Assembly: GCA_021324015.1 (NCBI GenBank)
Contig: JAJPJX010000211.1
Span: 62,001 to 126,000, forward strand
Length of the DNA: 64,000 nt
DNA from: Solibacteraceae bacterium
Lineage (GTDB): Bacteria; Acidobacteriota; Terriglobia; Bryobacterales; Bryobacteraceae
Reading direction: 5' to 3'
Shown here: piece by piece, positions 4,593 to 17,700 of the stretch
Position numbering within the stretch: position 1 is the stretch's first letter
Layout: each line of letters starts with the position of its first letter
Position numbers and translations under genes: made by a program
The notes under the pieces: model-generated
Told to the model about the DNA's origin: nothing
What the model saw: the letters and a program-made list of their open reading frames with translations, nothing else
Databases searched by the model: none

Positions 4593-5495
4593 ATGACCTA
4601 TGAAGAGGTGTTCGGCATCCGCGACAACCCCTTCTGTCCCAACAAGCCGTATGAAGGCGTGAGCCCCTTCCTGATGGCCAAGCTTTCGTCTCTGCCGCTC
4701 CAGATTCACAAAGCCCCCAGGCTGAAGGACCTGTTTTCCGAAGACGCCGGGCCGTTCCGGGACGCCATTCAGGACTTCCAGTCACTGTTGCAGGGCTACG
4801 GGTACGATCCGCCGGGCGTGGGCACCGAATCCTTCGTCTTTCTGATCCGCGGTCCGCAGGGCACCGGCAAGACCACTCTGGCGCTCTGGATGGTCGATTG
4901 GCTGGCCTCCTGCCTGCCGCCTCCCGGCAGGTGGAAAATCTACGACGACTGGATCCACAAGGATTTCGTCAGCGCCGAAGCCCAAGCCTCGGCTTTCCTG
5001 GCGCTGCGCGACCGCATTCTCCAGGAGACTTCCGAAACCGACTATATCTGCGTCCTGCTGGACAACCTGCTGGGCGGCGCCGAACAGCAAGCCCTGAACC
5101 TCTACGGCGATCTTTTCGAGAAGCGCGTGGTGGCCATCTTCCTGATCACCAGCGACCACGTGCTGCTCAACAAGAACTGGGACAACGCGCGCTTCAGCCC
5201 GCACGCCATTTACCAGACCGAGGATCTCAGCGCCGATAACGCCGTGCATTACATCCGCGACCGCATGAAGGTCTTTCGCGCGCACGGCGGCAACTCGCCC
5301 GCCGATCTGCTCTATCCCTTTCGGGAAGACGACATCCGCAGCTCGCTCGAGACCGGGGCCGACGAGACCGGGCGCATCGTCACCCTGCGCCAGCTCAACA
5401 TCACCCTTTGCAACGCCCTCCGGGAGGGGGTCAAACTGGGGCCGCCGGGCCCGCCGATCTCGCTGGTCCAGGCCTACCAGCGGCTGGTGGCCTGA
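4593..5495 (+). CDS. AAA-type ATPase, first gene of NTPase/patatin cluster
   Basis: A 300-residue protein of unknown function with a P-loop NTPase core. Walker A is GPQGTGKTT at about residues 87-95, and a Walker B-like strand YICVLLDNL has its Asp near 157. The start EVFGIRDNPFCPN resembles the FGL-x-x-x-PF opening of ExeA/GspA-type AAA ATPases, but the rest is too divergent for a firm family call. No membrane segment or nuclease motif is visible. Its stop codon is directly followed by the ATG of the next ATPase, so the two are almost certainly translationally coupled. A probable promoter abuts its own start codon. Confidence 0.7.
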   Translation: MTYEEVFGIRDNPFCPNKPYEGVSPFLMAKLSSLPLQIHKAPRLKDLFSEDAGPFRDAIQDFQSLLQGYGYDPPGVGTESFVFLIRGPQGTGKTTLALWMVDWLASCLPPPGRWKIYDDWIHKDFVSAEAQASAFLALRDRILQETSETDYICVLLDNLLGGAEQQALNLYGDLFEKRVVAIFLITSDHVLLNKNWDNARFSPHAIYQTEDLSADNAVHYIRDRMKVFRAHGGNSPADLLYPFREDDIRSSLETGADETGRIVTLRQLNITLCNALREGVKLGPPGPPISLVQAYQRLVA

Positions 5496-7841
5496 ATGCC
5501 GGACATGAACCCTTTCCCGGATTATCCCGTGGCCAAGCTCACGGATGCCAGGCCGCCGCACGCCATTATTGAGACCGACCAGATCCAGCGCGCGCGGGGA
5601 GCGGTGGAGACCTATACCAACCAGTGGCCGAAGGATCTGGCGCGCACCGCGGAGACCATCAGGCCCGTGATCCTGGCGGTGCGCGGCGACTACGGCTCGG
5701 GCAAGACCTTCCTGCTGCTCGACGCCATGGCCACGCTTCGGGAAAGGCTGGCCGGCCGCTCGCATACGGTGTTGCGCTTTGCCGCGATCGAGGCCGATCC
5801 GGTGGGTTGGTATCAGACGGAAATCGGCCCGCGCCTGGCCGGCAACCAGCTCGCCGAAATCATGACCCTGGTCTACGCCGAGGCCGCCAAAAAGGTGGCC
5901 TCCGAGGTGGCTCTGACCGAGGCTGCCGTGGAGCGCCTGAATCGCGAGCCGCGCTTCGTCTACCAGCTCATTAACAGCCACCTGCTCAACCGCTCGCGCG
6001 TAGACGCCACCCTGGCGGATTTTTTGCGGCAGCAATGCAAGATCGGCGACGACGACACTCGCGCTGCCTGCCAGGGCCTGATCTGGGACCAGACCACCGG
6101 CATCGCCCAAAAATGGTTTGCGGGCAGGCCGCTGGATTCCTCGGAAAAAGAGCAGTTGCGCATTTCGCAGAGCATCATCACGGAAAACGCCGCCGCGGCC
6201 GCAATCACCGCCGTCGCCTCCATTCACGCCTTTCTGCGCCGGCCCCTGGGCCTATTCATCGATGAGCTGGAGCACCTGGTCCGCTTCGACCGGCGCGAAA
6301 ACGCGGACCGCGGCGTCACCTGGATGAAACGCCTGCTCGAGAGCCTGGCCGGCGCCAGCCCGCTGATGTTCGTGGCCGGCCATTGGGACGCCTGGGAGGG
6401 GCTCCGCGCCGACTACCTGGACCGCTTCACGGCGCAGATCCCCATCGACATGCTCAAGCTCGCCGGCAACGACGTGCGCACCATTGTGGAGCGCATCGTG
6501 CCACTAGTGACCGGCAAAACGCCCGTCTTCTCCCAGGATGCCGCCGACGCCGTGGCGCGACTGGCCGGCGGAAATTTCCGGCGGGTGATTACCCTGCTGC
6601 GCGCGCTGTTTGACAGCTCCGCCGGCTTTAGCCAAAGCCCCGCCGGCGAAACCATCGAGAAGCTGTTCGAGGAAGCCGGCCAGAAGCTCTCCCTGGACCA
6701 GGCCACCCAACTGTTGCAGGAGATCCTGGGGCAGCGCGGCATCGAGGCGCGCCCCTACGCGCTGGTGAACGAGACGCGCTTCGACCTGGCGGGCTACCAG
6801 GCGGGCCGGCCCCGGATCGTCTTCGCCCTGCGCCATGCCCTCACCGCCGCCGACAGCGCCGGAGACGTCAAGCGCTTCCTGGCGCAGTTCGACGCGGCGC
6901 ACAACAGCGTGCCCGGCCTGATCGGCTGCTTTATCGCCGACGGCAGCGTGGATACCGAGGTTCTGTCGGCCATCGGCGGCTCGGATGTCAACGTGATCGC
7001 CTTCGACCTCACCCGCCGCGACGTACTGGCCCGCATCACCGCCGAGCTCGACAAGCGCCTGGGCGTCAAGCCCGGAGCCGGAACCGCCAGCGCCGTCGAG
7101 CAGCTTTCGGTGCAGAGCGCCGCCCTGGTCGAACGCATCGACGAGGCGCGGCGCACCCAGGATGCCACCCTGGTCGCGGCGCTCGAGGACCAACGCAGGA
7201 AGCTCAGCCTGGAATTGGAAAAGGCCAGCAGCCAGTACCAGCAGCGCACGCAGGATTTGGAACGGCAGATCGCCGCCATCGAGCGGAAGCGCATCACCGA
7301 AATCCAGGAGATCGGAAAGCGGGTCGATGAACTGACCCAGCAACTCCAGTCGGAACGGGAGAAGCAGGTCACCCGCCTGGCGGCGCCGGCCGAATCCGAC
7401 CTGACGCGCCTGCATGTGACCTACACGGACCTGATGAAGCAGCCCACCCCGGGCCAGCTCCTGAACTATGGGTTGGATTCCATGGCCATGGCCCTAGCCC
7501 TGTTCGGCGTCGTAGCCGGGATCGCTTCGGCCGTCTTCTTCAAGATCGGGAGCTACGACCTCCAAGGGTCCGTTTGCCTGGCGCTCGCGGGTGTATCCGT
7601 GCTGGCGCTGGCTTACGTGGTCCGCAGCCGCGCCCTGCGTTTTTCCCGCTTTCACGATTTTCGCGTGCGCACTCTGCGCGAGATCTACGCCCGCTCCGAA
7701 TCTCCTGAGGCTCTGATCTCCGCGGACAATTTGATGCGCAATCTGTTCGATCACTATGGATGGCCGGAAGGTATGCTGCGCTCCCGGGACCTTTTGGGCC
7801 AGCAGTTCGGGCTGCGCTCCGAAGCGCGGCCCATGAGTTGA
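5496..7841 (+). CDS. large P-loop ATPase with coiled coil and C-terminal membrane hairpin
   Basis: A 781-residue NTPase. Walker A is GDYGSGKT at residues 64-71, and Walker B is LFIDELEHL with Asp256-Glu257, followed by a sensor-like strand LMFVAGHWDAW. A middle domain (about 400-525) is unrecognised. About 533-630 is rich in Glu, Gln, Lys and Arg in heptad-like order and is probably a coiled coil. Two hydrophobic stretches at about 660-710 probably form a membrane hairpin before a short cytoplasmic tail. The architecture suggests a membrane-anchored STAND/AAA-like sensor. It starts immediately after the preceding ATPase and is followed 50 bases later by the KAP NTPase. No effector domain is recognised, so function by analogy is speculative. 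Confidence 0.7.
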   Translation: MPDMNPFPDYPVAKLTDARPPHAIIETDQIQRARGAVETYTNQWPKDLARTAETIRPVILAVRGDYGSGKTFLLLDAMATLRERLAGRSHTVLRFAAIEADPVGWYQTEIGPRLAGNQLAEIMTLVYAEAAKKVASEVALTEAAVERLNREPRFVYQLINSHLLNRSRVDATLADFLRQQCKIGDDDTRAACQGLIWDQTTGIAQKWFAGRPLDSSEKEQLRISQSIITENAAAAAITAVASIHAFLRRPLGLFIDELEHLVRFDRRENADRGVTWMKRLLESLAGASPLMFVAGHWDAWEGLRADYLDRFTAQIPIDMLKLAGNDVRTIVERIVPLVTGKTPVFSQDAADAVARLAGGNFRRVITLLRALFDSSAGFSQSPAGETIEKLFEEAGQKLSLDQATQLLQEILGQRGIEARPYALVNETRFDLAGYQAGRPRIVFALRHALTAADSAGDVKRFLAQFDAAHNSVPGLIGCFIADGSVDTEVLSAIGGSDVNVIAFDLTRRDVLARITAELDKRLGVKPGAGTASAVEQLSVQSAALVERIDEARRTQDATLVAALEDQRRKLSLELEKASSQYQQRTQDLERQIAAIERKRITEIQEIGKRVDELTQQLQSEREKQVTRLAAPAESDLTRLHVTYTDLMKQPTPGQLLNYGLDSMAMALALFGVVAGIASAVFFKIGSYDLQGSVCLALAGVSVLALAYVVRSRALRFSRFHDFRVRTLREIYARSESPEALISADNLMRNLFDHYGWPEGMLRSRDLLGQQFGLRSEARPMS

Positions 7842-7891
7842 GTTGTTGCGCCGCGACCGTAAAGAAAGCGGCCGTGGAGAGGAGAACTTCG

Positions 7892-9313
7892 ATGGCCGCC
7901 ACCTACGTGGAAGATATCCCTTCGCCGGCGCCCCGGTTCGATTGCGACACCGTGGCCAAGGCCCTCACCGAAGTGTTACTGCGTCCGGCTTCGGGAGCCA
8001 TCGTCCTGGGAGTGCACGGACCGTGGGGCTCAGGCAAGACCACGCTGCTGGAAGCCATCCGCAGGGACCTCGCCGCGCGCGGCCTCCATAGCACCGTAAT
8101 CTGGTTCAACGCCTGGAAGTTTCAGGACCGGGAAGCGCTCTGGCGCGCCTTGATTCTGCACGTAGTCGCCCGGTTGAAGGACAGCGGCGGCGACGCCAAA
8201 AAGCTCACCGAACTGGAAGAGTCCCTGTACCGGGCCTTCACCGTGGAGGAAAAAGGCCCCTGGAAGCTCAACTGGCGCACTCTGATCGTCGAGTTGATCA
8301 GCATGCTGCTCTCCATCGTGAAGCTGGATTTCGTGGGCAAGGCCCTCAAGTCCTCCACCGGCTGGTTCGGCCGGATTTTCCTGGGCGGCGGCGATGAAGA
8401 CGGGGACGGAGGAGCCGTGCTGGATCACGACCGCGTGGAAAAGATCGCCTCCGTGCTGGAGCGCAAGACCGTGGAGCGGCAGGTCGTGCAGGTGGAATCC
8501 ATCGAGCAATTCCTGGGGAAGTTCCAGGACCTCATGAAGACCCTGTCCGCGGCCGGGCACGGAGTCTTTGTGTTCATCGACGACCTGGACCGCTGCCTCC
8601 CCGAAGCCGCCTTGCAGATTTTCGAAGCCATCAAGCTGTTTCTGGACGCCCCCGGCTGCCGCTTCGTGGTGGCGCTGGACCGCGAGGTGATCCGCAAAGG
8701 GCTGGCCGTCCGCTATGCCGCCCCGGGCGCCGCGGCCGCCGGCCAGTCCCTCATCGATCCCGATGAATACATCGAAAAGACCATCTCGGTCTCCTACGAC
8801 GTGGCTACCCTCTCGCGCGGAGACGCCTTGGAGATCATGGACGCCTTCCAACTCCCGTTCGCCCTGGACGACCCGCAGAAGCGCCTGATCATCGCCGGGC
8901 TGGGCACCAATCCGCGCCGGGTGAAGCGCTTCATGAACACCCTGGCGGTGCAGTTTCACCTGGCCGCGCTGGCCGGCGTCGCAGCGCCGCCGAACCCGCG
9001 CGACCTGGACATCGTCATCAAGCTGCAAATCGTGAATTACCGCTATTCCGGCCTCTTCGCGGCCCTGCTGGCCGACGCGTCGCTCATCGCGCGCCTGCAG
9101 GAGATCAGCACCACGTACCGCACCAACCTGGATTCCGGGGATCAGCAGAAGGCGCGTGCGGAGCGGGCCGCCGCCCTGGCGCGCGAGCGCCCCCAGATTC
9201 AGGCGCTCGAACACGAAGAGGATTTCTGGCGGCTGATGGCCGTCAAGCCATCTTTTCCCAAGGACGCGCAAGGCATCGCCAAGGTGCAGCAGTGGTTCCG
9301 CACCCGCGTGTAG
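7892..9313 (+). CDS. KAP family P-loop NTPase
   Basis: A 473-residue member of the KAP NTPase family (Kidins220/ARMS and PifA), which includes plasmid and phage-exclusion proteins. Walker A is GPWGSGKT at residues 43-50. The family-typical Walker B FIDDLDRC starts its Asp pair at residue 230, and the region FVVALDREVI follows. A hydrophobic stretch (LIVELISMLLSIVKL, about 130-145) lies between Walker A and Walker B, where KAP proteins carry membrane insertions. It is short here, so it may be a peripheral anchor. GTNPRRVKRFMN is the helical lid. The ATG at 7892 was chosen because AGAGGAGA precedes it by seven bases. It is the third NTPase in a row, and a patatin follows after 43 bases. Confidence 0.82.
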   Translation: MAATYVEDIPSPAPRFDCDTVAKALTEVLLRPASGAIVLGVHGPWGSGKTTLLEAIRRDLAARGLHSTVIWFNAWKFQDREALWRALILHVVARLKDSGGDAKKLTELEESLYRAFTVEEKGPWKLNWRTLIVELISMLLSIVKLDFVGKALKSSTGWFGRIFLGGGDEDGDGGAVLDHDRVEKIASVLERKTVERQVVQVESIEQFLGKFQDLMKTLSAAGHGVFVFIDDLDRCLPEAALQIFEAIKLFLDAPGCRFVVALDREVIRKGLAVRYAAPGAAAAGQSLIDPDEYIEKTISVSYDVATLSRGDALEIMDAFQLPFALDDPQKRLIIAGLGTNPRRVKRFMNTLAVQFHLAALAGVAAPPNPRDLDIVIKLQIVNYRYSGLFAALLADASLIARLQEISTTYRTNLDSGDQQKARAERAAALARERPQIQALEHEEDFWRLMAVKPSFPKDAQGIAKVQQWFRTRV

Positions 9314-9356
9314 CCGCGCGGCCATATTACAATTTAGGGGAAAGAGATCTGTAACT

Positions 9357-10505
9357 ATGCTCGGTCTGGTAATGACAGGCGGCGGCGCCCGGGGCGCCTA
9401 TCAAGCCGGAGTGCTCAAGCGCATCGGCGAGATCCCCCGTGTCCGGGCGCAGGGCAACCCCTTTCCGATCATTGGGGGCGCCTCGGCCGGAGCCGTGAAC
9501 GGGTCGGCGATTGCCGCGGGCAGCGACGATTTCGCCGCCGCCACCGAGGTCACCGCGCAGCTCTGGTCCAGCCTTCAGCCGTCCGACATTTTCCGGTGCG
9601 ATGTCCTGTCGCAAGCGCGCAATTCCGTGACGTGGATCCTGGATCTCTCTTTCGGAGGGGTGGTGGGGGGCGGCAACGCCCACTCCCTTCTGGATGCCCG
9701 CCCTTTGCGGGCTTTTCTCAACCGGCACCTGGACTGCGACCGGATCCAGGCCAATATCAAGCAGGGCTGCCTCTACGCCCTGGCCATCTCCGCGACCAAT
9801 TACAACTCCGGGCGAAGCTATCTGTTCATTCAAGGCAAGAGAGGCCATCCCATCTGGAACCGAAGCCGCCGGGTCACGCTGGCCACGAAAATCACCGTTG
9901 ACCACATCTGCGCCTCGGCAGCCATTCCGCTGGTCTTTCAACCGGTGAAACTGCGCACCGCGCGCGGCACGGCGTTTTTCGGCGATGGATGTATCCGGCT
10001 GCAACAGCCCCTCAGTCCCGCCATCCGCCTGGGCGCCCATAAGATCCTGGCCATCGGCGTTCGCGGAGAGAGCCCGGAACGTGAGAGCGAAAATACTCGT
10101 CAGACCGAGCCCTCCCTGGCTGAAATGATGGGAGTCCTCTTCGACGTCATGTTTCTGGACCATCTTTCTACCGATATCGAGCACCTCCAGCGCCTGAACC
10201 AGCTTCTGGGCGCCGGGCAGATCGGTCAGCCCGGCCTGGAAGGTTGCGAACGAATGCTCCCGTTGCGCTCGTTTCTGATCACGCCGTCGGTGCCTTTGTC
10301 CGAAGTGGCCATGCAGCACCGCCTCGACATGCCGTACCTGATCCGGTACTTCGTGAACAGCCTGGGGCGGGATGCGGCTTCGTCCGCGGATCTGATGAGC
10401 TACCTGCTGTTCACTTCGCCGTACACCAGCGCGCTGGTCGATATCGGCTATCAGGACGCAGCCCGGCAGATCGACGCGATCGAAGACTTCCTTTACGCCG
10501 CGTGA
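9357..10505 (+). CDS. patatin-like phospholipase
   Basis: A patatin-family serine acyl hydrolase of 382 residues. The oxyanion loop GGGARG is at residues 8-13, and the nucleophile elbow GASAG puts the catalytic Ser at 43. The dyad Asp is near 210 in GDGC, where most relatives have DGG or DGA. It would cleave membrane phospholipids or other lipid esters. There is no signal peptide or membrane segment, so it acts from the cytoplasm. It sits 43 bases after the KAP NTPase on the same strand. A TACAAT hexamer at 9328 could give it a separate promoter. Patatins of this length also occur as ordinary housekeeping genes, so its membership in the NTPase cluster is probable but not certain. Confidence 0.85.
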   Translation: MLGLVMTGGGARGAYQAGVLKRIGEIPRVRAQGNPFPIIGGASAGAVNGSAIAAGSDDFAAATEVTAQLWSSLQPSDIFRCDVLSQARNSVTWILDLSFGGVVGGGNAHSLLDARPLRAFLNRHLDCDRIQANIKQGCLYALAISATNYNSGRSYLFIQGKRGHPIWNRSRRVTLATKITVDHICASAAIPLVFQPVKLRTARGTAFFGDGCIRLQQPLSPAIRLGAHKILAIGVRGESPERESENTRQTEPSLAEMMGVLFDVMFLDHLSTDIEHLQRLNQLLGAGQIGQPGLEGCERMLPLRSFLITPSVPLSEVAMQHRLDMPYLIRYFVNSLGRDAASSADLMSYLLFTSPYTSALVDIGYQDAARQIDAIEDFLYAA

Positions 10506-12182: not shown

Positions 12183-12932
12183 TCACAGGTTACTCATCCC
12201 GCCGTCGATCAGGACCTCGCTGCCCGCCATGAACGCCGATTCGTCCGAGGCGAGAAAAACTACGGCGCGGGCAATCTCGCTGGGTTTTCCGAAGCGCCCC
12301 GCCGGGACCTGGCTCTGGATGGCGGCGGCCACGGACCCCAGATCGGCTTCCGACAAGCCGAGCTTGCCGTACAGGGGGGTCGAGATGGGACCGGGGCTGA
12401 TGGCGTTCACCCGGATGCCGCGCGAGATCAACTCGCCCGAGAGGGTGCGGACCAGCGAAAGCAGTGCGGCCTTGCTGGCTCCGTAAACGCTCGTATTCGG
12501 CATCCCTATGTGCGCGTTCACCGAGGCGTTCAGCACGATGGAAGCCGGGTTCGCCAGCGCCGGCAATAGGGCCTGCACCAGGAAATACGGCCCTTTCACG
12601 TTGACCGCGAAGGAGCGGTCAAAAGCGTTTTCATCCCACTGCTCCACAGGTCTGAGCTCGGCGATTCCGGCATTGAGGAACAGGACATCGAGCCCGCCGA
12701 AAGACTGCCGAAGCGTTTCCGCAACCTTCTTCTGCGCGCCTGCCTCGCCGGCGTCCGAGGGAATAATCAGCACGTCGGGCCCGAGTTCTTTACGGGCGCT
12801 TTCGAGCGTCGCCGGATTCTTGCCGGTGACCGCCACGCGGGCGCCCTCGTTCAAGAACTGGTGCGCGGTTTCGAGGCCGATGCCGCTGGTCCCGCCGGTG
12901 ATGAGAGCCCGTTTCCCCTGTAGCCTGCCCAC
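12183..12932 (-). CDS. SDR family oxidoreductase
   Basis: A classical short-chain dehydrogenase/reductase of about 249 residues. The cofactor motif is TGGTSGIG near residue 12, NAG is in LFLNAGIAEL, the catalytic Ser is in LNASVNAHIG, the YGASK motif supplies Tyr and Lys, and the protein ends with VLIDGGMSNL. I chose the GTG at 12932 because a GGGGGA run lies seven bases upstream. A TTG at 12947 would add five residues. It is first in a two-gene operon with the MDR reductase. The substrate is not predictable. Confidence 0.82.
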   Translation of the reverse strand: MGRLQGKRALITGGTSGIGLETAHQFLNEGARVAVTGKNPATLESARKELGPDVLIIPSDAGEAGAQKKVAETLRQSFGGLDVLFLNAGIAELRPVEQWDENAFDRSFAVNVKGPYFLVQALLPALANPASIVLNASVNAHIGMPNTSVYGASKAALLSLVRTLSGELISRGIRVNAISPGPISTPLYGKLGLSEADLGSVAAAIQSQVPAGRFGKPSEIARAVVFLASDESAFMAGSEVLIDGGMSNL

Positions 12933-13057
12933 GGTGCAATCCCCCAATGATGAAAATTCCGACGGTCTATGGGATTCACCAGCCGAAGAAAGGATGCAGA
13001 TATTCCGGCAGGTGGCCTCCAGGAGCGGCGATGGGTCGCGGTGAAAGCAGCCGCAGG

Positions 13058-13588
13058 CTAGAGATCAAGCCGTCTGATCTCTGGGATCGCCGCCGATAGC
13101 GACGGAATGCAGGACCCCGGAATTGGGGCGTTGGTGCGACTCCATTCGAAAAAACGATCAGCGGCAGTCGCGATGAAATCATCGACAGCGGCATCTCGGC
13201 TGTAGTCCGTCTCCTCATCCACCTGCCTGCCGCTCAGGCACAGAATCCAGGTCTCGATATTCCGCTTCGGAATCAGGTGAACGATCCGTTCGTCATCGCC
13301 GCGTCGGGGTAAGCCGGAGAATTGCCGGCGGCGTTGCCCCAGCCCTGCCTTGTCGGCATCAATCGCTACAATAAGTGCCGTCCTGGCGTGCTTCGACCTC
13401 GCTCGATACGTGCCGACGGCCGTCGCATAGCGTTCCCGAACCCACTGTTCCCCGCATCCCCTCCCGCTGGGCAGGGGGTCGGGGTAGAGGTCGTGCCCGG
13501 AGTACCCCAGGCGGTAAAGATACCTTCGAACAAACCCTTGGTGCCGCTCGTCCTCGGCAAGGACTGCCACCTGCGAGGGCCTATTCAC
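13058..13588 (-). CDS. small TOPRIM-like protein paired with an OLD/AAA15-type ATPase
   Basis: A 176-residue protein, probably a single-domain TOPRIM nuclease-like protein (DUF4276/AriB-like). The signs are a first strand ending in an acidic motif (VAVLAEDERHQGF), a central strand with a DxD pair (ALIVAIDADKAG, about residues 70-81), and a later IPKRNIETWIL element of the type found in TOPRIM partners of ABC-like ATPases. It starts with GTG at 13588, which overlaps the last eight bases of the ATPase gene, so translation is coupled. By family knowledge, ATPase plus TOPRIM pairs include OLD nucleases and the PARIS anti-phage system. The family assignment is mine, by motif only. Confidence 0.62.
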   Translation of the reverse strand: MNRPSQVAVLAEDERHQGFVRRYLYRLGYSGHDLYPDPLPSGRGCGEQWVRERYATAVGTYRARSKHARTALIVAIDADKAGLGQRRRQFSGLPRRGDDERIVHLIPKRNIETWILCLSGRQVDEETDYSRDAAVDDFIATAADRFFEWSRTNAPIPGSCIPSLSAAIPEIRRLDL

Positions 13589-14693
13589 GCTCCCATCCCC
13601 GAGCTACGAGTTCAGAGGGGGATAGTGGGCTGTCAGGATCTCCATGAAACCGCTCCACGCGGACCGGCCCAATTCCATCGCGAAGGAATTGCACGCCGTT
13701 TCTTGGAGCCCATTGATTGATGAATTCCGGGTGGTGCGAAATGAGGAGGATTTGTCCCTGGCCACTTTCGACAGCGTCGGTCACCGCCATCAGCCACGGC
13801 TGAATCTCGCGGAGAGAAACAAAGTTGTCGGGCTCGTCGAGAACAACTGTACTTCCCCTGGCCAGGACGAAATGCAAAATGGTGTACAGACAGATCAGGC
13901 ACCGCTGGCCATCGGACAACTCGTTGAAAGAGAATTTGCTGGCCTTTCCCCCGCTCTGGCCCTGACTAAATTCAGCGGTCAGCAGCCGCACATTTTCTCC
14001 CGCTGGTTCTAGTTGCAGAAAAGTGAAACCATCCAGGGATGCGCGCAAGCTTTCGAGCAGGGCAGCATTTTGCTGGGGATACGCCTGCACGAGGTGCCGG
14101 TACCATGCGGCGATGTTTGAGAGATCGACCTTAGGATAGAGGTCCTCACCCTCCGCTCGAGATCCCATCGCAAACGGGTTGATCCGAAAGCAAAACAGAC
14201 CGGCGAGCCATGCCTTGAATCGGCTGAGCGTTTGGTTGTCCTTCCTCGGAATGATCGTTGCCAGGGCCGAACGATGCCAGTCGAACTCGTAGGTGACCTT
14301 GTGCTCGGACCGGTCATTGTAAAGATGCACTTCGCCGGTATTGAACTCAAAGATCGGCTTCCCGTTACAGCGAACTGTCTCGGAATAGACACGCGGCCGC
14401 GGCGGGTCTCCCCAGGGTTCGATCGTGAGGTGATAGATGTATTGCGCGCCGTCTAACTCCGCTTCGAGTTCGCAGGTCTGTTGCGGTTGGTTCAGCCATC
14501 GTGTCCGCTGGCTCAGGACAAGGAAGTCGTCAAACACGTCGCCCTTCGCGATGAACTGCCGTAAGAACAGTAGAGCATCAAGGAAGGACGACTTGCCCGA
14601 TCCGTTCCGGCCCAGGATCAGCTCCCTTCGAGCGGGCCTGTGCTCGAAGTTGACAAAACAGCGGAAATTATCCAGGTAAAGCCGCGTGAGCAT
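13581..14693 (-). CDS. AAA15/OLD-like ABC ATPase
   Basis: A 370-residue SMC/RecF-like ATPase. Walker A is GRNGSGKSS at residues 28-36, the ABC-like signature is NELSDGQRCL, Walker B is VVLDEPDN, and the switch His is in ILLISHHPEF. The N-terminus LTRLYLDNFRCF is typical of RecF/OLD/AAA15 proteins. The region between Walker A and the signature is short, without a long coiled coil. The gene overlaps the downstream TOPRIM-like gene by eight bases. Such ATPases act as sensors or cages for toxic nuclease partners in several defence modules, and that is the likeliest role here. Confidence 0.82.
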   Translation of the reverse strand: MLTRLYLDNFRCFVNFEHRPARRELILGRNGSGKSSFLDALLFLRQFIAKGDVFDDFLVLSQRTRWLNQPQQTCELEAELDGAQYIYHLTIEPWGDPPRPRVYSETVRCNGKPIFEFNTGEVHLYNDRSEHKVTYEFDWHRSALATIIPRKDNQTLSRFKAWLAGLFCFRINPFAMGSRAEGEDLYPKVDLSNIAAWYRHLVQAYPQQNAALLESLRASLDGFTFLQLEPAGENVRLLTAEFSQGQSGGKASKFSFNELSDGQRCLICLYTILHFVLARGSTVVLDEPDNFVSLREIQPWLMAVTDAVESGQGQILLISHHPEFINQWAPRNGVQFLRDGIGPVRVERFHGDPDSPLSPSELVARGWERE

Positions 14694-14729: not shown

Positions 14730-17700
14730 CTACCCGTGCACAGTGGCGCGGCGCTCCAGCTTGCCCCAGCCCACCAGCCGCCCCTTCATGGCGAAAAGCA
14801 GCGACTTGGCCAGCACGTAGTACATGAGCTCGCGATAGTAGACGCGCTGGAAGAACAGCAGTGCCAGGTCCCAGGGCTTCTCGCCCTCCAGGGCGTACGC
14901 CAGCAGCCCCGTCAGCAGTTCCAGCACGAAGAAGCCCAGGTAAAACGCCAGCACGATGCGCCAGTTGCCCGCCACGAGCGCCAGCACCATGGCCAGTTCG
15001 GCCAGCGGCGAGATGGCCGAAAGCAGCACTTGAAATACCCAGATGCTGGGCAGCGCTACCCAGCCCAGCGACCCGTACTTCGGCACGAACAGGGCGTCGC
15101 GATGTTTCCAGGCGGCTTGCAGTGTCCCGAAGGCCCAGCGGAAGCGCTGCTTGGCCAGGCTGCGCGTATCCTCGGGAGCCTCCGTGTAGGCCACGGCTTC
15201 CTCGTCATACCGGATGGTATGGCCCTCGCGCCGGATGGCCAGCGTCAGGTCCGTGTCTTCGGCCAGCGTGTCGTGCCCAAAGCCGCCCAGCTTCAGCACC
15301 AGATCCTTGCGCCACGCCCCCACCGCTCCCGGTACCACCGTGATGGCGTTCAGCAGGTCCAGCGCGCGCCGGTCCAGGTTGAAGCCGTAGATGTATTCGA
15401 TCGACTGAAAGCGCGTGATCCACTTGTTCCGGTTGCCCACGCGCGCGTTGCCGGAAACCGCGCCGATGCGCGGGTCGGCAAAATGCCGCACCAGCTTCCC
15501 GATGGTGCCCGGGCGGAAAATCGTGTCCGCGTCGAGCGCGATCAGGATATCCCGCGAGGCGTGCGCGATGGCGTAGTTCAGCGCCGCCGATTTGCCGCGG
15601 TTGGCCTGCGCGAGCACGCGCACCCGCGCATCCCGGCCGAAGTGCTCGCGCAGCAGGGCCAGCGTGCCGTCCGTGGAGCCGTCGTCCACCACCACCACCT
15701 CCACGCCCGGATAACCGTTCTCGAGCACGGAGCGCACCGTGCGCGCGATCACCTTCTCTTCGTTGTAGGCCGCGATCACCACGGAGACCGGCGGCTGCCA
15801 GCCCGCATCGAATCGCCGCCGCCGCGCGCGCTGCTTCTGGATCACCGCCAGCGAGCCGAACGCCAGCGAGCGCATCAACGTCAGGTAGATCGCCCATAGG
15901 AACAGAATTCCGATCACCTTCTTCACGTTGCTCTGGGCGCCGAAAGCTTCGCCTTCGATGCGCGCCAGCCGCATCTCGGCTTCGCCCGGCACGGGCATCA
16001 CCTCGTCGCGGGCCTTGCCGATCAGCTCGCTCACCGTCACGAAGCGGTAGCCCTGATTTCGCAGATCGTCGATGATGCGCGGCAGCGCCTCCACCGTGGC
16101 CGAGCGGTCGCCGCCTGCGTCGTGCAGCAGGATGATGTTGCCGCTGTCCTTCTCGCTCTCCACCTCGTCCACGATCTTCTGCGCCGTCACGTTGCGGTCC
16201 CAGTCGCGCGGGTCAATCCGCTCGCCGATGACCATGTAGCCGGCCTGCTGCGCGCGATAAATGGGAATGATCTCGGCCGGCGTCTGCGGCTCGCTGTCCG
16301 CGTTATAGGGCGGCCGGAACAGCGTGGTGGCGCGCCCCACGGCGTTCTCGATGATGCGCAGCGTGGTGCTCAGCTCCAGCCGGCTGCGTTCCTCGGAAGC
16401 CGCCGCGACGTTGGGGTGCGAGTAGGTGTGGTTGCCGATCTCGTGGCCCTCGTCCCAGGCGCGCTTCAGCAGCGCGGGATTCTGCTCCGCGTTGACCCCG
16501 ATCACGAAAAACGTAGCACGCACCCCGCGGCTCTTCAGCACGTCCAGAACCTGCGGCGTGAAGCGCGGATCGGGACCGTCGTCGAAACTCAGCGCCAGCG
16601 TCTTGGGAACCCGCCGGCTGTTCTCCACCACGTAGTAGGAAGGTAGCGCCTCGTACCTCTCCTCGTAGTCTCCGTCTTCATCCCGTTTTACGGAGCGGCG
16701 GCCGTCGTGCGGCGTCTCCGTGATCCGCAGGATGTCGCCATCGCCCGTGCGGATCACCGAGCGCGTCGCCGTCAGCGCCGCCAACTGCCCCGGATCGTAA
16801 TTGTCGTCCGGCCAGGCTTCCGGCTTGAGCACGGTCCACAAGCCGGGATCTTCGGCCCCCAGGCGCCACACCCCCACGCCCCGGAAGCCTCCGTCGGAGA
16901 CGTCGATCACGTGGTTCAACCCGGTCACCGCGTCCAAAAACCAGACTTCGTGCTGCCCCGCTTCGTCCCGATAGCGGAGCACCGGATTCTCAGCGTCCGC
17001 GTCCCACTGCACCGACCCTTTGCGCAGCGAAGCCGCACTCATCACGTCGCCGAACACCGCTTCGGCGCCTCCCGAGCCGCCGATCACCCAGTCATAGCCG
17101 TAGGCGCCCAGCCCGATCACGGTTTTCTCCGGCGGCACAATCTTGGCCAGCCGGTCCAACTGCCCCTGGAACCAGTCCTCGGACGCCACCGGACCGGGCG
17201 GCCCGGACTGATAGTGCTCGTCGTAGACCATCGGCACCAGGTAGTCGATGAGGGTCGCCAGGCGCTTCAGATCATAGGCCGGATCGTCGGGCGGCACGCT
17301 CTCGGTCACCAGCAGCCCGGCAGGTTGCAGCCGGGCGCGCAACTCTGCCATAAACGCCACCAGGTCGTCCCGGTCGCGGCGGGAGAGCTGCTCGAAGTCG
17401 ATATTCACGCCTGCAAAGTGGTGCTCGGTGAGGTTGCTGTAGATGTTGTCGATCAGGTTCTCGCGGGCCTCCCGGTTGCGCAGGATGTGCTGCACGTCGC
17501 CCGCCTGCCAGCCGTCCCGAAAATTAGTCACCAGAGCCAGGATGGGCAGTTTCACCTGCTTCGCAATCTCGATCACCACCGGATCGGACTGGTCGTCCAG
17601 GTCCCCCCGCCGGTTCTGGAGGATCAGCCACTCCGGCACCAGGTGCGTGAGGTGGGCCAGGTTGAGGCGCAGGGAGACGATGCTGGACGGGTCCCAGTTG

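Follow-up and report, generated by a model that had tools for sequence, protein, structure and literature searches.

A compact ABC ATPase and putative toprim nuclease gene pair from an acidobacterium, a candidate split OLD/PARIS-like defence module

Among the OLD classes described to date, PARIS constitutes the split class 4 (PMC10568477, PMC12796447). In PARIS, AriB is a tRNase that is set free from AriA (PMC12409363), and the published detection rule combines an AAA_15 or AAA_21 ATPase scoring above 32 or 27 bits, respectively, with a DUF4435 partner at 27 bits or more (PMC9122126). PARIS has been located within BREX in Salmonella (PMC11341690), and OLD-toprim modules were reported to be common in BREX and DUF499 systems (PMC12839542). 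Also described are the HEC, or Hma-embedded candidates (PMC12988326), and WonAB, a related pair of an ABC ATPase and a nuclease (PMC12137116).

The gene pair considered here, A and B, lies in a 64,000-nucleotide stretch of acidobacterial DNA (the window, meaning the whole stretch analysed) from a genome of 8.2 Mb (G000) with a single copy of B. The pair spans positions 13058-14693, both genes being on the minus strand with A preceding B. Its features are as follows.

13581..14693, minus strand: gene A (ATG start), coding for a putative sensor, an ABC ATPase (AAA_21) of 370 aa
13058..13588, minus strand: gene B (GTG start), coding for a putative toprim nuclease of 176 aa
13581..13588, minus strand: overlap of A and B, 8 bases, from the ORF coordinates
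14589..14612, minus strand: Walker A of A, GRNGSGKS, residues 28-35; G28, N30, G31, G33 and K34 invariant in 60 A proteins
13905..13919, minus strand: LSDGQ, the ABC signature of A (residues 259-263), in which S260 and G262 do not vary across the 60
13833..13853, minus strand: Walker B of A, with D286 and E287, both invariant in 60
13734..13736, minus strand: switch histidine H320 of A, invariant in 60
13553..13555, minus strand: E12 of B, first acidic residue, right after the first strand, which the model places at 6-11; no variation in the 61 chosen rows
13352..13360, minus strand: D77-A-D79 of B, DxD after strand 70-75; invariant in the 61 chosen rows, 98% in 65
13247..13267, minus strand: KRNIETW of B, residues 108-114, with E112; E112, T113 and W114 invariant in the 61

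A preliminary description of this DNA had claimed an ATPase and a small partner on a common strand with an 8-base overlap, as the ORF positions bear out. The Walker A, ABC signature, Walker B and switch histidine that it read in the ATPase, and the acidic first motif, DxD and RNIETW that it read in the partner, are all present, and the key residues listed above are invariant in the 60 A proteins and the 61 chosen B rows, respectively. On the same strand, 5' of A, a gene ends at 14730 whose product of 1109 aa contains glycosyl hydrolase 18, deacetylase and glycosyltransferase domains (Pfam), 36 bases before A; downstream of B is an SDR-like gene (12183-12947, named by eye). The G+C content is 0.563 for A, 0.616 for B and 0.658 for the window, and a promoter and terminator scan gave a signal no higher than the shuffled level. 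Elsewhere in the window, 2.5-8.5 kb from the pair, a same-strand run on the plus strand (4593-10505) encodes a 300-aa P-loop protein, a 781-aa BrxC/D-like ATPase (Pfam 8e-5), a KAP NTPase (PF07693 6.2e-34; QatA model 6.3e-43, though its 147 bits fall short of the cut-off of 600) as well as a patatin (3e-21), and may be a conflict-related operon.

Protein A scored 66.6 bits against Pfam AAA_21 (cut-off 27) and matched the PADLOC models AriA (5.4e-19), AbiLi (2.6e-18) and HEC-01A (1.7e-17), several of which were also matched by 60 of 60 aligned A relatives (E 0.001). Its predicted model (pLDDT 92.1) resembles the heads of SMC, Rad50 and PtuA in a structure search (Z 19-21). A belongs with the ABC heads of the OLD/SMC/Rad50/PtuA kind. 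As its Walker A and signature motifs, the D-E of its Walker B and its switch histidine are invariant in 60 proteins, it would be expected to hydrolyse ATP.

Toprim domains carry an acidic residue at the first strand and a DxD at a later strand, and DUF4276, DUF3226, RloB and DUF4435 are toprim relatives. In the model of B, this acidic pattern is represented by E12 after strand 6-11 and D77xD79 after strand 70-75. In the alignment of 61 rows, obtained from 65 non-redundant sequences by leaving out L023, L062, L067 and L070 (left out for odd C-termini or, in the case of L070, for loss of the DxD), E12, D13, D77, D79, E112, T113 and W114 are invariant, and profile comparison aligned KRNIETW with the E-x-W element of HEC-01B. 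For the window's B itself, Pfam, PADLOC and NCBIfam gave no match up to E 1, and PHROGs none up to 0.1. Its 61 relatives gave weak Pfam matches to DUF3226 (15 proteins, best 1.4e-4), DUF4276 (10, best 2.3e-5) and RloB (3, best 9.6e-4), DUF4435 being absent among the best 25 of the 56 Pfam families matched. The PADLOC label HEC-01B matched up to 27 of the 61 weakly by one model, with a best value of 1.7e-7 by another, and PHROGs returned scattered weak single-member matches (at most 3/61).

Compared profile to profile, the B family reached 87.4% with HEC-01B, 86.6% with DUF4276 and 3.3% with RloB, against ~0.1% for column-shuffled controls; such one-against-one probabilities are rough, and HEC-01B is a mixed label. 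When the B profile was set against 32 neighbour families, the top value was 6.7% and the other 31 gave at most 1.35%. The top family consists of four HEC-01B sequences, in the cluster to which those of L027 and L039 belong; the link is thus not confirmed by this second HEC-01B group, whose alignment is small and weak. By profile, the nearest relatives of B are DUF4276/HEC-01B. The preliminary description had likened the RNIETW element to DUF4276/toprim proteins; a link to DUF4276 is seen with the family profile, but not with the window's B taken singly, which has no DUF4276 match at E 1. Two DUF4276 loci occur elsewhere in G000 besides the pair, and DUF4435 was carried by 0 of 100 genomes of the window's order. 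Divergent cyanobacterial-class pairs of an ATPase and a B-like protein were also seen (L199 5783-7626, L200 4931-6786 and L210 7297-9190; B-profile E 1.8e-9 to 2.1e-8 or better) and may bridge the B family and DUF4276, L210 passing the DUF4276 cut-off (33.2 bits) and L199 failing it (23.4).

The predicted model of B (pLDDT 92.7) shows alternating strands and helices and matched the OLD C-terminal region 6nk8 (Z 6.8, rmsd 4.2, 142 residues aligned), the PARIS chain 8ux9_A (306 residues, AriB by inference; Z 6.0, rmsd 3.9, 139 aligned), 8v46_D (Z 5.4) and GajA 8jq9 (Z 5.4, rmsd 3.9, 129 aligned), but also lumazine synthases at up to Z 7.0, level with OLD and AriB; a family missing from these tables is not thereby counted against. 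The preliminary description had named a lack of structural similarity to toprim as evidence against itself; toprim chains do figure in the list of matches, with lumazine synthases equally high. With B as query, Foldseek returned nothing at E 0.001 from PDB or from viral models; the best viral match was an RloB-like protein above that threshold (E 9.3e-3). The B profile reached at best E 0.34 against solved structures. The toprim fold of B is putative, based on motifs and profiles more than on the structure search, which does not single out toprim.

Of 112 B relatives in genome contigs, 80 were kept and, with four from a close-relative search, gave 84 loci; a single record apparently stands behind both L003 and L013, so that not all of the loci are independent. 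In 79 of the 84 (the window's own counted), A and B overlap by 1-22 bases on a common strand, most often by 8 (33 loci), 14 (25) or 4 (12) bases. These 79 include loci with a short A (L011, L032, L041) or a short or cut B (L015, L041, L046, L066), while in the remaining five (L019, L037, L070, L074, L083) the pair is broken, lies at the edge of a contig or yielded no A. With 79 of 84 loci coupled, the A-B pairing is more than chance. The module also decays in some lineages, A and B being disrupted in L037 (4902-6367) and B shortened in L066 (5995-6315). B was the less conserved protein: of the 75 pairs in which A is more than 75% identical, 56 showed lower identity in B, although these pairs are not independent of each other. 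The window, for example, shares 82.9% (A) and 64.6% (B) identity with L005, and 81.0% and 62.3% with L006.

Occurrence is patchy, with the pair in 4 of 41 relatives and 6 of 297 genomes of the phylum (own genome counted in each). It was found in 13 of 291 genomes of the class of G408 (8 full and strong, centre counted; 1 partial; 4 weak) and in 12 of 257 of the class of G407 (9 full, centre counted; 3 partial or weak). Eleven of 12 genomes hold one copy, the twelfth having one full and two partial matches. The G000 pair is closest to those of Bryobacterales and other Acidobacteria. In a tree of A+B built by a quick method (73 rows, 11 phylum labels, 3 rows unlabelled), the 9 labelled Acidobacteriota rows fall together, as do the 4 Chlorobiota rows; Thermodesulfobacteriota and Chloroflexota rows are scattered. 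A strongly supported 9-row clade beside L004 (of the window's order) carries Fibrobacterota, Chloroflexota, Planctomycetota, Myxococcota, Pseudomonadota and Thermodesulfobacteriota labels. Horizontal transfer is the likely cause of this mixing of phyla; most rows of the mixed clade are metagenome bins.

The upstream glycosyltransferase gene has 11 relatives besides the window's own, and neither A nor B was found downstream of it in any of the 9 with ~1.5 kb of downstream sequence. Conversely, this gene is absent upstream of the close pairs L006, L007 and L201, each with at least 1.6 kb of upstream sequence (L005 offers only 236 bases). The empty site in 9 relatives and the lack of such a gene beside those three pairs suggest that the pair probably arrived as a unit. 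Plasmids, phages and viral contigs gave no match to the pair with one query per search, and a phage- or plasmid-borne element is not supported by these single-query searches.

Most loci have ordinary neighbours, at a site often common to related genera: Nostocales have P-type ATPase and MerR-like genes there, whereas in Microcoleaceae and Chlorobiaceae the genes are ABC-type (by eye and from tallies). The neighbour scan covered 131 of 154 neighbours, from 51 of 80 loci, and 48 of the 80 have 4 kb or more of flanking DNA on each side (measured from the start of B less 1 kb). At 1e-15, defence models matched few of the 131 immediate neighbours. Of the PADLOC matches listed (25 of 38 families), those in L024, L033 and L039 were checked further; the list also contains mad3 (7/131), AriA (2, one being that of L039), RtcR, Psyr, Nsn, Shos and Dpd, which may be housekeeping relatives.

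A minority of placements are of another kind. Two Desulfobacterota loci are of BREX type, with the order PglX, SLFN/AlbA_2-wHTH gene, A, B, PglZ, BrxL in L024 and PglX (end only, at the sequence edge), A, B, PglZ, BrxL in L033, where the stop of pglX and the start of A overlap by one base (TGATG). Both are cut at pglX by contig ends, and in a direct search of the 84 loci their PglX, PglZ and BrxL were present in these two only. The additional gene between pglX and A in L024 (3436-4131) encodes SLFN/AlbA_2 and winged-helix domains. In one of 28 further regions (L188), a DUF1156 methylase gene ends 48 bases before A, a DUF499 ATPase gene starts 12 bases after B and a HEPN_Swt1/SNF2 helicase follows, forming an RM-like locus. 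L039, L041 and L066 have HEC-01 genes 198-524 bases past B, and in L194 and in L027 (same genome as L192) such genes are ~4 kb from the pair; an AAA_15/DUF3696 ATPase gene is found ~2 kb upstream of the pair in L185 (1184-2569). PglZ was not commoner in cyanobacteria with the pair (3 of 29 carriers, against 31 of 291), which argues against the pair as a dedicated BREX part. A conserved link to a non-defence pathway, which the preliminary description had named as evidence against itself, was not seen among the neighbours, although most of them are ordinary.

Since relatives occur in many bacterial phyla and sometimes in anti-virus gene clusters, the pair is probably a compact defence module, and we favour the reading that A-B is a miniature split OLD/PARIS-like module, most likely for abortive anti-phage defence (probability about 0.62). 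The proposed mode of action is as follows. A and B would form a complex in which the ABC ATPase head A would bind ATP, keep B inactive and, as a sensor, monitor the cell for a sign of infection; upon the trigger, A would change state and free or activate B, a small metal-dependent toprim nuclease that would cut tRNA or DNA (about equally likely) and so stop the infected cell. This reading draws on the coupling in 79 of 84 loci, the invariant ATPase motifs and acidic set of B, and the profile link to DUF4276 and HEC-01B compared with the shuffled controls. It is also in keeping with the position of the pair between pglX and pglZ in 2 of 84 loci, the DUF1156/DUF499 placement in 1 of 28 regions and the patchy occurrence at differing sites, as well as with PARIS within Salmonella BREX and the frequency of OLD-toprim modules in BREX and DUF499 systems (PMC11341690, PMC12839542). 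Against it stand the ordinary neighbours of most loci, often constant within a genus, the zero plasmid, phage and viral-contig matches, a PglZ no commoner in carriers, the 6.7% of the second HEC-01B group, a structure search in which toprim is not singled out and BREX loci cut at pglX.

Several of these observations would also suit a housekeeping or stress nuclease acting on the cell's own DNA or RNA and drawn into defence loci on occasion. Ordinary neighbours and conserved sites within genera, a single copy in 11 of 12 genomes and zero phage, plasmid and viral matches all point that way, and Cran1, an OLD-family protein acting in the archaeal cell cycle, offers a precedent (PMC12796447). We nevertheless consider such a role rather unlikely, given the patchy occurrence, the many phylum labels mixed in the tree, the lack of the pair at the same site in 9 relatives with flank sequence, and the BREX and DUF499 placements. 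The match of the B model to lumazine synthases, at up to Z 7.0, would fit a protein that has lost nuclease activity or never had it and serves A as a structural or nucleotide-binding partner; with E12, D77, D79 and E112 invariant in the 61 chosen rows, this is improbable. Two overlapping genes, one for a small putative nuclease, together with the Pfam description of AAA_21 as a putative AbiEii toxin of type IV toxin-antitoxin systems, recall a pair kept by addiction, in which B alone would poison the cell and A would only neutralise it. That is highly improbable, as A has complete ATP-hydrolysis motifs, plasmid matches number zero and, in PARIS, loss of either gene is not toxic (PMC9122126).

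The reading of A-B as a defence module can be taken further, tentatively, as something possible rather than likely: the pair may represent a widespread, distinct and very compact split OLD class (guard and killer of 370 + 180 aa), which was taken up separately by BREX and by a DUF499 RM-like system and would sense blocked restriction or another sign of infection and act through a minimal toprim effector cutting RNA or DNA. If the favoured defence reading is right, the pair would add a compact OLD/PARIS relative of a kind that family searches miss, the window's B being without a match in Pfam, PADLOC, NCBIfam and PHROGs. Its small size would also make it convenient for studying the control of a toprim nuclease by an ABC sensor, and the way in which guard modules get into BREX and RM-like loci.

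Set beside known systems, the pair shares an ABC ATPase and a toprim-like part with class 1 OLD and Gabija GajA, B aligning with 6nk8 and 8jq9, whereas both domains are in one protein there (PMC10568477) and in two genes here. AbiL is approached through the AbiLi match of A (2.6e-18). An RloB-like protein gave B its best viral structure match, but membership of RloB (PF13707) was rejected, with no match for the window's B, weak matches in 3 of 61 relatives and a profile value of 3.3%. For DUF4276 (PF14103), to which the family profile and 10 of 61 relatives point, membership of the window's B was likewise rejected, with zero match at E 1 (Pfam cut-off 30.2 bits). DUF4276 was not found in the literature searched; the A-B family may nonetheless already be published. 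HEC-01 similarly combines an ABC ATPase with a small putative toprim protein, and A matches HEC-01A (1.7e-17) while the B family reaches 87.4% with one HEC-01B group; however, true HEC-01A scores 2e-135, the other HEC-01B group gives 6.7% and the window's B has no HEC-01B match in PADLOC. With PARIS, the pair has in common an ABC ATPase and a toprim (putative in B) as separate adjacent genes, the AriA match of A (5.4e-19), the alignment of B with the 306-residue 8ux9 chain (probably AriB; Z 6.0) and an occurrence inside BREX, in Salmonella for PARIS (PMC11341690) and in L024 and L033 for A-B. It differs in size, A having 370 residues against 464 in AriA and B 176 against 306, so that the partner is indeed smaller than AriB, as first noted from the sequence. 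Although A passes the ATPase half of the PARIS rule (AAA_21, 66.6 bits against 27), the window's B has no DUF4435 match (Pfam, E 1), and its membership of PARIS was rejected on that half of the published rule. The initial comparison with OLD or PARIS modules is therefore narrowed: the pair is not PARIS by the DUF4435 rule, and a two-gene OLD/PARIS-like module is the best supported reading.
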